Below, piece by piece: positions 1 through 5,132 of a stretch of 5,132 nt of DNA (within the stretch, counting starts at the first letter, position 1; each line of letters begins with the position of its first letter). The stretch comes from J088 sp003695505 [NCBI: Candidatus Dadabacteria bacterium] (lineage in GTDB: Bacteria; J088): contig RFIY01000206.1 of NCBI GenBank assembly GCA_003695505.1, positions 1 through 5,132 on the forward strand, read 5' to 3'. The position numbers were made by a program, and so were the translations under genes. The notes under the pieces are model-generated. The model was not told the DNA's origin. It did no database searches and saw only the letters and a program-made list of their open reading frames with translations.

Positions 1-1687
1 CACCCGCATCGACGTCGGTCGCCAGATGCGCGCCGCTGCGCTCGACCGCCGACTGAAACAGGTGAATGCGTCGCAGCAACGTTTCGCGTCGAATGCCGCG
101 CTTGTGGTGGACGCAGAGGCTGGTGGCGACGAGCGCGGTCGGCGTAACGGTGATCAACCGCTGGATGCCCCAGAGGATGTCATAGCCAACCTTGCGGGCC
201 TGTTCCAGCGTGGTGACCCCGGGCGCGTCGGCCTGCAGGGCGCGCAGCGATTGCGGTTCGCCGAAGCGGACATAGACTCGGCCATACTTGCGGCGCAGTT
301 TGCGCCGCGCGGCCAGCAGCGCGCCGACACTTTCTTTCTGTTTTTCGCCACCCTGCGCTTCTCGCACCATCGACGACTCCTCGAGAACCGACTCGTAGTC
401 AATCGCGATCGGCACGACCTGACATTCGGTGTGCTGGAGGCTGGCCTGGGCGTCGAGCAGCATCGTCAGCAGACCGAACTTCGGCGGCATGATCTTGCCG
501 CTGCGGCTACGCGTTCCCTCGATGAAGAACTCGATGCTGTAGTTTGCCCGCAGCAGCGCGCGGATATACGAGCGCAATGCGGCCTCGTAGGTCTGATCAC
601 CGAGAAAGCTGCGGCGGATGAAAAACGCGCCACTGCGTCGGAACAACGGCCCGAGCGGGAAAAACGACAGGTTGTCGCCGGCGGCGATGTGGGGCGGGAT
701 CAGTTCGTGCTGTTTGAACAGATACGAGATGATCAGATAGTCCATATGCGATTTGTGGCAAGGGACCAGGATGACCGGCCCACGGCGGGCCGCATCGCGA
801 ATACGTTCCAGTCCCTCCATATCGACGTTGAAGCCCTCGTAAATGCGCTTCCAGACGCGGCTCAGTACGAACGCCAGAAACCGGATCGCGCTCCAGCGAA
901 AGTCCGCGGCGATTTCATCGAGATTTTCCTCGACTTCGGCAAGTACCAGGTCACGGCTGACGCCGCGTTCACGCGCGACTTCGTCGACCACTTTCTGAAC
1001 GGACGGATCGTGCAGCGCGCGCTGGATCAGGCGCTGGCGCGGAATCAGCCGTGGACCGAGGTAGGCGCGCTCGGTCTGGGCGAGGTGATACCGGATGGTC
1101 AGCCGGACCTTGCGTGCCAGACGTGCGTCGTCGTCAGGGTCCTCCTGCACGAGCTGCGCCAGATCGACGGGATCGGCAGCGACGATCCGGCTGCCGCGCG
1201 CGCCAAGCACAACCCACATGATGCGCCGGAGCAGGCCGGCTCGTTCACGCGGACGAAACAGGATCTCGAGCAGGCTGCGCTCGACCCGACGCGGCGACAG
1301 GTCCCAGAGGATCGTGATCGGGAGCAACAGGATGCGCTCGCCACCGCGTGACGCGCCGACACTTTCCTCGATCAACGTAGCCGCCTGCTGGGCCTGAGGC
1401 CCATCCAGAAACAGCAGTGCGCGTGCCGGCAGGGTATCCGGCCCGACCGGCATCAGGCCAGCGATCACCGGCGGTTCCGAAATGCGGGCGCGCCGGCAGA
1501 ACGAGCGCCAGACCAGCACATCGACCCAGTTGGCCTTGCGCATCACAAAGATGACCCGTGCCTGCTCGCTCAGATCGCGGATACGTTCAACCACGTCCGT
1601 GGGCACCGGAATCCGTTCCAGCCACGGCCGCAACAGCACGCCTAGCAGACGCACGAGTAATGGCAATCGACTGCTCGCGTCACTCAT
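1..1687 (-). CDS. plsB: Glycerol-3-phosphate 1-O-acyltransferase PlsB (partial, C-terminus beyond left edge)
   Basis: PlsB is an inner-membrane-associated enzyme that transfers an acyl chain from acyl-ACP or acyl-CoA to sn-1 of glycerol 3-phosphate, the first step of phospholipid synthesis. Reading the minus strand from ATG 1687 gives 562 uninterrupted codons to the window edge. E. coli PlsB is about 807 residues, so roughly the last third is missing. The acyltransferase blocks appear in order: CHKSHMDYL with catalytic H311 and D316 (HX4D), GAFFIRR at 353-359, EGTRSRSGK at 390-398 and VPIAIDYE at 425-432. The preceding helical region (AYLGPRLIPRQ, then DEIAADF and NVDMEGLERIR) also follows E. 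coli PlsB. Block III reads EGTRSRSGK rather than the EGGRSRTG of E. coli. The start has a clear GGAGG 8 bases upstream. The ATG lies 4 bases after the stop of the LapAB-like gene, so translation is probably coupled. Family assignment is secure; completeness beyond the edge cannot be judged. Confidence 0.96.
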   Translation of the reverse strand, partial: MSDASSRLPLLVRLLGVLLRPWLERIPVPTDVVERIRDLSEQARVIFVMRKANWVDVLVWRSFCRRARISEPPVIAGLMPVGPDTLPARALLFLDGPQAQQAATLIEESVGASRGGERILLLPITILWDLSPRRVERSLLEILFRPRERAGLLRRIMWVVLGARGSRIVAADPVDLAQLVQEDPDDDARLARKVRLTIRYHLAQTERAYLGPRLIPRQRLIQRALHDPSVQKVVDEVARERGVSRDLVLAEVEENLDEIAADFRWSAIRFLAFVLSRVWKRIYEGFNVDMEGLERIRDAARRGPVILVPCHKSHMDYLIISYLFKQHELIPPHIAAGDNLSFFPLGPLFRRSGAFFIRRSFLGDQTYEAALRSYIRALLRANYSIEFFIEGTRSRSGKIMPPKFGLLTMLLDAQASLQHTECQVVPIAIDYESVLEESSMVREAQGGEKQKESVGALLAARRKLRRKYGRVYVRFGEPQSLRALQADAPGVTTLEQARKVGYDILWGIQRLITVTPTALVATSLCVHHKRGIRRETLLRRIHLFQSAVERSGAHLATDVDAG

Positions 1688-1691
1688 TGGA

Positions 1692-3068
1692 TCATCCTCC
1701 ACTCGCCAGCCGGCCCCGACCCGGCAGATGAGCAATCAGCCGCGAGGCCGCTGGTTCTTCCGCGCTGTACGGACGGATCATGCGAAAGCTCTGAAAGCCC
1801 CCGCAGCGTGGACATGTAACCGGATAACTTCGGGACAGTTCTCCACACCCGCCACAGCGCCACAGAAACGGCAGATGGCGCCACGCCCAGGCCGCCCGTT
1901 CCATATGCGCGGCGGCGTCGCGGTAGTGACCGCGATCGTACTCCAGAACGCCCTGCACGATGTCGGCATGCGCCGCAGCCGGCTGATCAGGCGCAATCGA
2001 GGACAGCCGTCGCGTTGCCTCTTCGACCAGGTCATGTCGAAGCGCCAGCCAGCCTGTTGTCAGCAGAAACCACGGATCGTCACGCACGTCGGACAATTCA
2101 TCGTCCAGGCGCGCCAGCAAAGCCACCGGATCCAGCTCGTCCTGCAGAAGCCGTTGCGCAAGGAGCAGCAGATCGGGATTGCCCGTGTTGCGGAATCCCT
2201 CGATACCCGTCCGCGCCGCGGCTACCGGCTCACCACGCGCGACCTGCGCCTGAACCGCAATCGCGTAGGGCGCGTACCAGCCAGAATAGTGTTCCCGCAC
2301 ATATGCGGCTTCTTTCAATGCGGTTTCGAAGCGTCCGTCCTCGATCAGCCGTTCGGCCAGGCGAATGCGCAATTGCATTTCCTGTTCGCTGAGTTCGATC
2401 TCTTCCTCTGGCGCGGGGGGATCGACCTCCCGCAGGCGCTCAAGTATTTCAAGTGCTTCGTCCTCGCGCCCCAGCGCCGCCAGCATGTCGATCAGGCGCC
2501 GCAGCGTCGAGCGCCGCACGACGGATCCAGCACGAATGCGCTCGAGCACATTGCGAATCCACAGTTCCTGCTCGCCCGCAGCTTCGTACAATGCGCTCCA
2601 GCGCAGTGAAAGTGCCGCTTCGGGGAGGCGTGGCAACAACCCGAGCAAGGCCACTCGGGCTTCTTCATGACGGCCCAGGTCGAGTAGCAGGCGAATATGC
2701 CAGTACTGCAGCCCCAGATCGTTTGGCTCGGCATTGGCGGCTTCCCGGATACGTTGTTCCGCCTCGTCCAGCCGGCCTTCACCGTAGGCGGCCTGGATTG
2801 CGGTGCGCACCTTGCGGCTCAATAGCCGTGGCAGCAGCTCGGACGGTTTGTGCGCGACCCGCAGCCGCCAGCGCGCAGCAATACTTAGAGAGACGGAAAG
2901 GCCCAGCAGAAACGACACCGCGACCAGCGCGACCGTCGGTACCGGCGCGCGAAAGCTGCCAATGCGCAGCTCGATACCCGGCGTCAACAACGAAACCGCG
3001 GCCAGATGCAGGATCGCGGCCGCAGCCAGTGCAGTCCACAACCACGGGGAACGTACAGTCTTGAGCAT
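1692..3068 (-). CDS. LapA/LapB-like fusion: two-helix membrane anchor, TPR repeats and C-terminal Cys4 zinc ribbon
   Basis: This encodes 458 residues. Two hydrophobic segments (about 8-29 and 42-65) flank a short loop reading GIELRIGSF, and basic residues follow helix 2 (RWRLRVAHK). This resembles the LapA (DUF1049) hairpin and predicts both termini in the cytoplasm. Residues about 83-395 are TPR-like helical repeats rich in Ala, Leu, Glu and Arg, for example GRLDEAEQRI, GRHEEARVAL, GREDEALEIL and GHYRDAAAHM. Near the C-terminus, C405, C408, C419 and C422 form CxxC-x10-CxxC, the spacing of the rubredoxin-like domain of E. coli LapB. LapB (389 aa) works with FtsH to control LpxC turnover and LPS synthesis, and LapA is a separate 102 aa protein; here both architectures sit in one chain. 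Sequence identity to LapB in the TPRs looks low, so the function is inferred from architecture. HemY also has two helices plus TPRs but lacks the zinc ribbon. A 36-residue tail follows C422. The frame is open upstream to 3302 but there overlaps rlmH, so ATG 3068 is chosen. Confidence 0.8.
   Translation of the reverse strand: MLKTVRSPWLWTALAAAAILHLAAVSLLTPGIELRIGSFRAPVPTVALVAVSFLLGLSVSLSIAARWRLRVAHKPSELLPRLLSRKVRTAIQAAYGEGRLDEAEQRIREAANAEPNDLGLQYWHIRLLLDLGRHEEARVALLGLLPRLPEAALSLRWSALYEAAGEQELWIRNVLERIRAGSVVRRSTLRRLIDMLAALGREDEALEILERLREVDPPAPEEEIELSEQEMQLRIRLAERLIEDGRFETALKEAAYVREHYSGWYAPYAIAVQAQVARGEPVAAARTGIEGFRNTGNPDLLLLAQRLLQDELDPVALLARLDDELSDVRDDPWFLLTTGWLALRHDLVEEATRRLSSIAPDQPAAAHADIVQGVLEYDRGHYRDAAAHMERAAWAWRHLPFLWRCGGCGELSRSYPVTCPRCGGFQSFRMIRPYSAEEPAASRLIAHLPGRGRLASGG
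1696..1700 (-). promoter_or_regulatory. Ribosome binding site of plsB
   Basis: GGAGG on the minus strand lies inside the last codons of the preceding LapAB-like gene, with 8 bases between it and the plsB ATG. This optimal spacing decides the plsB start at 1687. An ATG at 1695 reads only three codons before a stop and is not a start. Confidence 0.85.
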
Positions 3069-3094: not shown

Positions 3095-3505
3095 TCAGTG
3101 CCCTACATGATACGGGTGGCCGGTGAGAATCGTCAGAATGCGATAGATTTGCTCGGTTGCCACGGCTGCCGCGAGCTCGTGCGGCATCGTAATCTGGCCA
3201 AATGCCCAGCGCGTCTGGGCTTGCGCATCTCCTGGCCAGCCGTCGGCGCCGCCGATCAGAACCCTGACCAGTGGTGTCGCGGACAGTTCGCGTTCTCGCC
3301 ATTGGCGCGCCATCTGTTCTGTCGAGTATGCCGTACCGGCGGGATCACAGAGAATCGTCCAGCCATTGCCGGCAAACGGACGACGACCGGCGCGTTCGAT
3401 GACCTCGAACGAACGCTGCCGGGCAATCCGCGCGCCCCAGTCGCGGATCATTTCGGCGGCCGGCCCGCCGCGCAGGCGGAAGGCCAGATGCAGTTCGATT
3501 TTCAT
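3095..3505 (-). CDS. rlmH: 23S rRNA (pseudouridine-1915-N3)-methyltransferase RlmH, short divergent form
   Basis: RlmH is a dimeric SPOUT methyltransferase that uses S-adenosylmethionine to methylate N3 of pseudouridine 1915 in helix 69 of 23S rRNA on assembled 70S ribosomes. The 136-residue product carries the family signature in its second half: LIGGADGW at 83-90 (usually LIGGPEGL, the AdoMet-binding knot), MPHELAA at 107-113, and EQIYRILTILTGHPYH at 118-133, which ends in the conserved C-terminal PYH. It is about 20 residues shorter than the usual 155. The missing residues fall in the middle of the N-terminal half, where the Lys/Arg-rich segment and a helix normally lie. ATG 3505 is the only plausible start. 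Upstream codons in this frame contain no ATG, GTG or TTG back to the rsfS stop, and the Shine-Dalgarno is weak (GAAGAG abutting the ATG). It lies 32 bases after rsfS, its usual neighbour, which supports the call. Confidence 0.9.
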   Translation of the reverse strand: MKIELHLAFRLRGGPAAEMIRDWGARIARQRSFEVIERAGRRPFAGNGWTILCDPAGTAYSTEQMARQWRERELSATPLVRVLIGGADGWPGDAQAQTRWAFGQITMPHELAAAVATEQIYRILTILTGHPYHVGH

Positions 3506-3537: not shown

Positions 3538-3951
3538 TCAGGACGCCAGCGGCAGATCGAGCTCGGCAAGCGGAATGCGTGGCGCATCAAGCCACAAACG
3601 CTCGAGCTCATAGTATTCACGGGTTTCCCTGTCAAATACATGGACGACGATATCTCCATAGTCGACGAGGGCCCAGCCGGTTCCCTGTCCTTCGCTGCCG
3701 TAGGGACGAATGCCCTGCTCGCGGCAGGCATCGACGACATGGTCCACGAGTGTATTCGCATGACGCTGACTGGTGCCCGAACAGAGTACGAAGACGTCGC
3801 AGACGCTGGATACTTCGCCGACAACGACAACCTGAATATCTTCGGCCTTGCGATCATCCAGTGCGTGGACGATCGTCCGCAACAGATCGGCGGTGTCAGT
3901 TCGCAGGTATGGCAGTGGAGATGTGTCGGGACTACTGGAGGGGTCGTCCAT
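3538..3951 (-). CDS. rsfS: Ribosomal silencing factor RsfS
   Basis: RsfS binds uL14 on the 50S subunit and blocks joining with 30S, lowering translation in starvation or stationary phase. The 137-residue product matches the family from about residue 20 on: a helix ending in LDDRKAEDIQ, then D52 in SSVCDVFV, SGTSQRHA at 58-65, EGQGTGWALVDYGD at 87-100, VVHVF and YYELERLW at 113-120. The E. coli protein is 105 residues. The extra length is a Pro/Ser-rich N-terminal stretch of about 18 residues and a C-terminal tail (PRIPLAELDLPLAS). I chose ATG 3951 because it sits 5 bases after the nadD stop with a TGAGG just upstream. A longer reading starts at TTG 3987 inside nadD and adds 12 residues without family support. 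The position between nadD and rlmH is the standard one for this gene. Confidence 0.94.
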   Translation of the reverse strand: MDDPSSSPDTSPLPYLRTDTADLLRTIVHALDDRKAEDIQVVVVGEVSSVCDVFVLCSGTSQRHANTLVDHVVDACREQGIRPYGSEGQGTGWALVDYGDIVVHVFDRETREYYELERLWLDAPRIPLAELDLPLAS

Positions 3952-3956
3952 ATGCC

Positions 3957-4676
3957 TCAGGTTTTCCTCTGATGTACGGGCTGACAATCGTGGTCCGCGG
4001 GCGCGGACGGCGCATAAAGATGCTGCGCACGGATCCAGTTCGCAATGGTTTCAGGGACGAGGCCATCGATGGATTTCCCTGCTGCCAGGGTCGCGCGGAT
4101 CTCGGTCGATGACAACGAGACGGGCGTCATGTGCAACACGCGGATCCGTGTCGTTGCATCATGGTCATCCCGGCGCTGGAGGTTCCATTCCTGACCATCG
4201 TTGGTTGTATCATAGCAAATGCCCGCCACCTGCTCAATGTTCCGAATCACTGCACGGACGTCGATTTCGTACCCCGGCCGGGGAAAAACCGCCAGATTCG
4301 CGCGCCTGAGTAATGCGTCCGGGGACCGCCAGCGCGCGAAGTCGACGAACTGATCCGCGCCGATGATCAGCCACCATTCGTCGGCCTGCAGCCGCGCTCG
4401 CAGCGCTTTCATCGTGTCGATGGTGTAACTCGGGCCGTCCTGCCTCAGCTCGATCCCGCAGGCGTCGGCCCGCGGCACCAGTTGCGCAAGGCGACGCGCC
4501 ATTTCCAGCCGCTGATCGGGCGTTGCCGACGATGGAGGCTTTAACGGACTTTGTGCCGCCACAACGAGCAGCAGGCGGTCGAGACTCAGTTGTGCAACGG
4601 CCTCGCGAGCGACCGACAGATGCCCATTGTGCGGCGGATCGAATGCACCGCCAAAGACACCATACCGCACTGTCAT
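3957..4676 (-). CDS. nadD: Nicotinate-nucleotide adenylyltransferase NadD
   Basis: NadD is the cytoplasmic enzyme that joins nicotinate mononucleotide and ATP to give deamido-NAD and pyrophosphate, the penultimate step of NAD synthesis. The 239-residue protein opens with the nucleotidyltransferase signature GGAFDPPHNGHL at 9-20, containing the HxGH pair H16 and H19. It continues with SYTIDT at 83-88 (substrate-binding loop), GADQF at 106-110 followed by W116, and SSTEIR at 189-194, the ATP-binding ISSTxIR motif. The family end, WIRAQHLY at 214-221, is followed by an 18-residue tail (about 222-239) without an obvious counterpart in E. coli NadD (213 aa). The ATG overlaps the proA stop by one base (TGATG), so it is probably translated by coupling. 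The nearest upstream Shine-Dalgarno-like run (GAGGGG) is about 14 bases away, too far to act well alone. Confidence 0.97.
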   Translation of the reverse strand: MTVRYGVFGGAFDPPHNGHLSVAREAVAQLSLDRLLLVVAAQSPLKPPSSATPDQRLEMARRLAQLVPRADACGIELRQDGPSYTIDTMKALRARLQADEWWLIIGADQFVDFARWRSPDALLRRANLAVFPRPGYEIDVRAVIRNIEQVAGICYDTTNDGQEWNLQRRDDHDATTRIRVLHMTPVSLSSTEIRATLAAGKSIDGLVPETIANWIRAQHLYAPSAPADHDCQPVHQRKT

Positions 4677-4678
4677 CA
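4674..4678 (-). promoter_or_regulatory. Overlapping stop/start TGATG joining proA and nadD
   Basis: On the minus strand the proA stop TGA (4678-4676) shares its last base with the nadD start ATG (4676-4674). Such overlaps allow a terminating ribosome to restart, which would make nadD output depend on proA translation. The absence of a well-spaced Shine-Dalgarno before nadD fits this reading. Confidence 0.7.
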
Positions 4679-5132
4679 GACCCGGATCTGCCCCTCGCCG
4701 ACGACCACGAACTTCTCGGACGTCAGCTCCTCGAGGCCCATCGGGCCGTACGCATGAAGCTTTGTCGTCGAGATACCGATCTCTGCACCCAGACCGAGCT
4801 GCCCGCCATCGGCAAAGCGCGTCGATGCGTTGACTGTGACGGTCGAGCTGTCAACCAGACGCACGAACAGCCGGGCACGGTCCTGATCCTGCGTCACGAT
4901 GGCCTCGGTATGCCCCGATCCATAACGCTCGATATGGGCCGCAGCAGCTTCTACACCATCGACGACGGCAATATTTGCGATGTAATCGAGATATTCCGTC
5001 GCAAAGTCGGCCTCGGACGCCGGTTCCAGAGAAGCATCGATGGCGAGTGCCCGTTCGTCACCCTTGAGCGTGACGCCGGCGGCGCGCAGGGCGTCAATCA
5101 GACGCGGCAGTGCGGTCTCGGCAATCGCGGCA
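4676..5132 (-). CDS. proA: Gamma-glutamyl phosphate reductase ProA (partial, N-terminus beyond right edge)
   Basis: ProA reduces gamma-glutamyl phosphate with NADPH to glutamate 5-semialdehyde, the second step of proline synthesis. Only the last 151 residues are visible; the full enzyme is about 417, and the catalytic cysteine lies outside the window. The visible part reads clearly as Pro[21 protein letters not shown], then [53 protein letters not shown] and PMGLEEL, ending GEGQIRV. The frame is open to the right edge. A GTG at 4897 is an internal valine in the conserved TEAIVTQD segment, not a start. The gene is followed directly by nadD, a common proteobacterial order. Confidence 0.97.

Follow-up and report, generated by a model that had tools for sequence, protein, structure and literature searches.

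The open reading frame at positions 1,692 to 3,068 of the window (that is, the whole stretch of 5,132 nucleotides that was analyzed) encodes a protein which, judged by profile, architecture, and locus together, is a highly diverged member of a separate, widespread, and so far unnamed bacterial protein family with its own conserved locus. This family, designated here G1, is related to the LapB-type proteins and is not named separately in Pfam or NCBIfam, and no paper on a fused LapA-LapB protein or on a G1-type protein was found among the open-licence literature. On balance, we lean towards the explanation that the product of this gene is such a diverged G1 member acting as an inner-membrane, LapB-like adaptor; by analogy, it would probably work anchored to the membrane in the way LapB does.

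The initial annotation had recognized in this protein two hydrophobic segments, TPR repeats, and a Cys4 motif at residues 405-422, and the three elements were borne out by the translation, by a match to Pfam TPR_19 above its cut-off (E 3e-9), and by shuffling of the motif. The hydrophobic segments (residues 8-29 and 43-65) are free of charged residues and are separated by a loop of 13 residues (30-42), and residues 66-90 contain eight Lys or Arg versus one Asp or Glu. This uncharged pair followed by a positive flank is consistent, according to the positive-inside rule applied by eye, with a cytoplasmic location of both ends and of the TPR region, which fits the topology originally predicted. 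The Cys4 motif, CGGC-x10-CPRC, accounts for all four cysteines of the protein, and a comparable motif appeared in none of 20000 shuffles. A single-sequence AlphaFold2 model (mean pLDDT 67.5) exhibits a helix at residues 8-28, short strands at 33-36 and 39-42, a second helix at 43-72, and TPR-like helix pairs, together with two strands at the ribbon (415-418 and 425-428), which lie in a region (residues 377-458) where the pLDDT is below 50. The features of the window are collected in Table 1.

Table 1. Features of the window, with positions counted from its first letter.
Feature	Position	Strand	Basis
G1-family protein: LapA-like hairpin, TPR solenoid, and Cys4 ribbon	1692..3068	-	458 aa plus stop; translation, G1 profile, tree
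LapA-like transmembrane hairpin, residues 8-65	2874..3047	-	Model helices 8-28 and 43-72, 13-residue loop
TPR region, residues ~85-392	1893..2816	-	Pfam TPR_19, TPR part of the G1 profile, model helices
Cys4 ribbon CxxC-x10-CxxC, residues 405-422	1803..1856	-	Motif, G1 and LapB ribbon profiles
proA, 3' part, continuing beyond the window edge	4676..5131	-	ORF; named by eye; matches an ORF in 20/38 G1 loci
nadD	3957..4676	-	NCBIfam TIGR00482, E 9e-45, over cut-off
rsfS (ribosomal silencing factor)	3538..3987	-	Pfam RsfS, E 2e-32
rlmH (23S rRNA methyltransferase)	3095..3505	-	Pfam SPOUT_MTase, E 1.7e-22
plsB, 5' part	2..1687	-	TIGR03703, E 1.9e-113, under the full-length cut-off because the gene is truncated

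Taken by itself, the window protein does not reveal these relationships. At E≤1 it is matched neither by the Pfam LapA model (LapA_dom, PF06305), nor by Pfam Zn_ribbon_LapB (PF18073), nor by the NCBIfam LapB models (PRK11788), and the HemY model TIGR00540 reaches it with an E value of 0.0015 over residues 283-388 (17.4 bits, the cut-off being 142). Since the LapA and LapB models fail and the HemY match is weak, the original interpretation of the protein as LapA and LapB joined in one polypeptide finds no support in the window protein alone.

Distant relatives were more informative. A search of 116 genomes, the window's own included, revealed them in eight others, five of which yielded full-length proteins with hairpin, TPRs, and ribbon. 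In the resulting alignment of six proteins, LapA_dom and Zn_ribbon_LapB each match five at E≤1, the window protein being the one that fails. The profile of this alignment matches 65 of 386 genomes (own included) at E≤1e-30, and 67 of the 69 places listed were fetched, the two skipped being the window's own and a partial place (G306:C66). These 67 were sorted by their hydrophobic segments, with a hydropathy threshold set in a script, and by the presence of the Cys4 motif. The script assigned 36 to a two-helix class (31 with Cys4 and 5 without) and 28 to a one-helix class (25 with Cys4 and 3 without), and found no helix in the remaining three. Some assignments were made by hand: L122 was reassigned from one helix to two because the script had placed its start inside the first part of the protein, where two segments are visible; L123, with no helix found, was put in G1 by its locus; L128 and L143, fragments with no helix, were put in the one-helix class; and L160, a lipoprotein-like TPR protein, was dropped. 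The two-helix class thus defined is G1 (38 places), and the one-helix class, G2 (28 places), corresponds to canonical LapB. Profile A2 was constructed from 27 of the 32 two-helix G1 proteins that carry Cys4 (L112, L116, L117, L121, and L122 left out), and profile A3 from 23 of the 24 Cys4-bearing G2 proteins (L146 left out). Five two-helix, G1-type TPR proteins with rsfS nearby (L114, L118, L148, L154, and L157) were observed in which the Cys4 ribbon was not found.

The G1 relatives carry the parts that the window protein, by its own Pfam matches, does not. LapA_dom is recognized in 20 of the 27 profile members at E≤0.01 (best E 3.9e-11), and Zn_ribbon_LapB also in 20 of them; the proposal that the protein is assembled from parts of LapA and LapB type therefore holds for the family, including the LapA-like nature of the N-terminus, and fails for the window protein when it is searched directly. 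Of the NCBIfam LapB models, the best one recognizes 26 of the 27 proteins at E≤0.001, which identifies G1 as a LapB-related family unnamed in the libraries searched; in the one member examined in full, every NCBIfam LapB match lies below its cut-off.

Several lines of evidence place the window protein in this family. The G1 profile of 27 proteins, from which the window protein was left out, aligns with it as one colinear domain over residues 38-430 with 97 bits; the LapB profile reaches 44 bits, in an alignment broken into three. Among the other fetched TPR matches of the same genome, summed scores go as high as 131 bits, but no single domain exceeds 50.7 bits. The TPR part of the G1 profile scores 54.6 bits with the window protein. 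The hairpin profile scores 10.3 bits, its aligned part being the second helix (residues 38-61), a value reached by none of 1000 within-segment shuffles (maximum 9.4). Scores at the ribbon are 20.4 bits with the G1 profile and 19.3 bits with the LapB profile, equaled by 1 and 2 of 1000 Cys-fixed shuffles, respectively, with PF18073 itself unmatched. In helix 2, Gly56 of the window protein occupies a column that is Gly in all 27 G1 proteins, and Thr29, at the end of helix 1, one that is Asn in all 27. A tree built from the cytoplasmic region that all have in common, without the membrane part (32 G1 proteins, 24 G2 proteins, and the window protein), separates G1 from G2 by a single branch with support of 100/99, and the window protein falls on the G1 side, inside G1; its branch is the longest in the tree (2.95), and the AU test leaves a placement on the LapB side unrejected (p 0.19). 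It is the combination of profile, architecture, and locus that identifies the protein as a diverged G1 member.

Among PDB matches to profile A1, the solved LapB structures are by whole-sequence score the top natural proteins, behind four engineered TPR proteins, with the best stretch at profile positions 75-228, and this ranking was counted in favor of the LapB-like explanation. Fold searches did not discriminate. With the window model, the LapB structure 7t6d_B ranked sixth by Z (Z 12.8, 297 aligned residues, rmsd 9.1), level with TPR proteins unrelated to it, so the high position of LapB in the fold lists carries little information. The compared genomes listed share only their domain with the window genome. 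A phylum search returned the window's own genome alone, and further scans gave no close relatives. Among the best 80 of 496 nadD relatives, which are 28-43% identical and come from many phyla, the flanks contained no full-length G1 gene, the best G1-profile domain there scoring 58.7 bits over TPR positions 81-288.

The third element of the assignment is the locus. On the minus strand, the window carries proA (3' part), nadD, rsfS, rlmH, the G1 gene, and plsB (5' part), in that order. The gap between rlmH and the G1 gene is 26 bp and that between the G1 stop and the plsB start is 4 bp, which makes co-transcription of the genes very likely. In the ORF list, nadD and rsfS share 31 bp (3957-3987), an overlap that suggests translational coupling of the two genes, the rsfS start being uncertain. 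The RlmH of the window is short and diverged, with a match that begins at position 64 of the 154 of the SPOUT_MTase model and a score far under the NCBIfam equivalog cut-offs for RlmH. The same type of locus, proA-nadD-rsfS-(rlmH)-X-(gpmI), where X is the G1 gene, recurs throughout the family, with rsfS recognized upstream in 33 of the 38 G1 loci, nadD in 29, proA in 20, gpmI in 13, and rlmH in 9. None of the 28 G2 loci holds rsfS (Fisher p 1.4e-13, uncorrected for kinship), and in 12 of them HIT, lapA, or sppA was recognized. As neighbors were recognized by BLAST with a few proteins from the window and from early loci, some have likely been missed, especially rlmH (9/38) and the G2 neighbors (12/28). 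The window differs from other loci in that plsB occupies the position held in 13 of them by gpmI (named by eye), an arrangement that might connect the protein with phospholipid synthesis; no G1 match was found beside plsB in five other plsB-bearing genomes (L255-L259).

The distribution of G1 with respect to LapB, LapA, and lpxC was also considered. Canonical LapB was detected alongside G1 in 4 of 38 G1 genomes, and none was found in the other 34. Three of the four (G091, place L095; G360, L099; G344, L131) encode a full-length protein. The fourth (G235) has a 366-aa LapB-like protein for which the match is split in two, and a HIT gene lies close to it. Among the 385 other genomes, canonical LapB was counted in 69 by profile score rather than one by one (87 match at E≤1e-45, 18 of them through G1 only). 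The 34 of 38 looked striking as a sign of mutual exclusion between G1 and LapB, an idea that was discarded because the overlap of 4 compares with 6.8 expected (p 0.15). The gene lpxC is present in 36 of 38 G1 genomes versus 287 of 347 others (324 of 386 overall), an association that at p 0.06 was not used as proof. These counts allow a LapB-like role for G1 without establishing it. A separate LapA gene, defined as an open frame of ≤218 aa over the cut-off, is found in 29 of 39 G1 genomes, the window's own included, which counts against the hairpin simply replacing LapA.

The genome of the window itself contains lpxC (E 7e-99) and, on another contig, a separate gene whose LapA domain scores over the Pfam cut-off (L001 1-607, G000 C58), and which by eye follows sppA and a HIT-family gene; the ORF after it runs into the contig end and starts like a secreted protein, unlike LapB, also by eye. 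A second, weak LapA-domain match lies elsewhere in the same genome (L002 1501-1632, G000 C352; E 2.4e-4, below cut-off). No gene passes the LapB models in this assembly (84.5% complete, 395 contigs), and given its fragmentation and incompleteness lapB could be hidden as well as lost. The initial annotation had held that intact, separate lapA and lapB genes elsewhere in the genome would speak for a different TPR family; lapA is indeed there, and lapB was not found.

With this evidence, the explanations proposed for the protein can be compared. The initial annotation regarded it as a lineage-specific lapA-lapB fusion, in which both proteins would form an obligate 1:1 unit. A recent fusion replacing both separate genes agrees with the presence of hairpin, TPRs, and ribbon in a single chain and with the failure to find canonical lapB in the window's genome, but the same architecture occurs in 32 further genomes, nearly all at loci unrelated to lapA-lapB. 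The cytoplasmic part, moreover, groups with G1 rather than with LapB, even if the AU test keeps this from being decisive, the genome has kept its own lapA, and canonical LapB coexists with G1 in the four genomes mentioned. The fusion has therefore been rejected as largely refuted by the separate locus, the wide family, and the separate lapA, and we regard it as improbable. Even less credible is that the protein is a relative of HemY. HemY (TIGR00540, PF07219) does share the two-helix N-terminus and the TPRs, and partial matches to it are common in the family (HemY_N in 12 of 27 G1 proteins at E≤0.01, TIGR00540 in 23 of 27 at E≤0.001), but LapA_dom matches more members and with a better best E value (3.9e-11 versus 2.9e-8), and the window protein was set apart from HemY on the basis of its very low score with TIGR00540. 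HemY genes are located with haem genes, a locus other than that of the window, and HemY is not known to carry a zinc ribbon.

A more serious alternative, which we nevertheless consider rather doubtful, is that G1 serves as an adaptor but that its client is not LpxC and belongs to the processes encoded in its locus (ribosome silencing, rRNA methylation, or NAD and phospholipid synthesis), so that the LapA and LapB parts would have been reused in another regulatory circuit. The conserved linkage to rsfS, nadD, and in part gpmI argues for it, as do the proximity of plsB in the window and the genomes that encode LapB, full-length or of 366 aa, besides G1. In the same direction, the Arg, His, and Trp typical of LapB are retained in 11, 13, and 13 of 27 G1 proteins, respectively, and all are absent from the window protein. 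Nevertheless, an old gene order need not imply a common function, and G1 otherwise shows the whole LapB layout.

Returning to the explanation of G1 as a LapB-like adaptor, the closest known system is LapB/YciM (PDB 4ZLH, 7T6D, 8V24; PRK11788; PF18073), which has in common with G1 an N-terminal membrane anchor, a cytoplasmic TPR arm, and a C-terminal CxxC-x10-CxxC motif. Two reports describe E. coli LapB as an adaptor of FtsH, whose single helix binds the protease and whose cytoplasmic part recruits LpxC, and place the ribbon next to the substrate site of LpxC in the structure of the LapB/LpxC complex (PMC9356133; PMC13333357). In contrast to this single helix (PMC13333357), G1 proteins hold a two-helix hairpin. 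The loci differ as well, since G2 LapB genes, where their neighbors were recognized (12/28), accompany HIT, lapA, or sppA, and G1 genes follow rsfS; in the window, unlike in LapB, lapA is not a neighbor. LapA/YciS (PF06305) has the same two hydrophobic helices and short loop as the G1 hairpin, but it is a separate small protein, whereas the hairpin is part of a larger chain.

From these similarities, a working model can be outlined. G1 proteins are inner-membrane proteins in which a LapA-type hairpin, with both ends predicted to be cytoplasmic, precedes the TPR arm, and a zinc ribbon of LapB type forms the C-terminus. They are related to canonical one-helix LapB as a sister group or as a paralogous family, and their locus is not beside lapA. 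The docking site of the hairpin may be the membrane itself or a membrane protease (FtsH, for example), the TPR arm may recruit or hold a soluble client, for which LpxC would be the first candidate, and the ribbon may sit at the client face and cap the client. A hairpin of LapA type on an arm of LapB type is at least consistent with LapA and LapB acting together; LapA copurifies with LapB, and its mode of action is called unclear in PMC12444477. By analogy, LpxC is possibly the client of G1. Among the points counted against such a role, the neighbors of the G1 locus are translation and NAD genes and not LPS genes, and control of LpxC by FtsH has been reported to be largely limited to enterobacteria (PMC12444477). 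For LapB relatives outside this group, a possible model is Ght, the LapB homologue of Neisseria meningitidis, for which regulation of LpxC by membrane localization without FtsH has been suggested (PMC12444477).

According to the same source, LPS synthesis outside enterobacteria is controlled in ways that vary among bacteria and are known only in part (PMC12444477). G1 represents a concrete candidate for this control, being conserved and syntenic and occurring in genomes that nearly all contain lpxC and in most of which no LapB was seen. We put forward as a tentative possibility that a second widespread LapB-type family with a built-in LapA hairpin controls LpxC, and with it LPS, in many LPS-making bacteria lacking canonical LapB. 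If this were true, G1 would tie the synthesis of the envelope to the growth-state genes encoded alongside it (rsfS, nadD, and often proA) and, in the window, would link directly to phospholipid synthesis via plsB. The two-helix anchor also bears on the contribution of LapA to LapB, and the genomes that encode both G1 and a full-length LapB (G344, G091, and G360) are good subjects for separating the two functions. If the client is instead different from LpxC, the LapB layout would be that of a general membrane adaptor.
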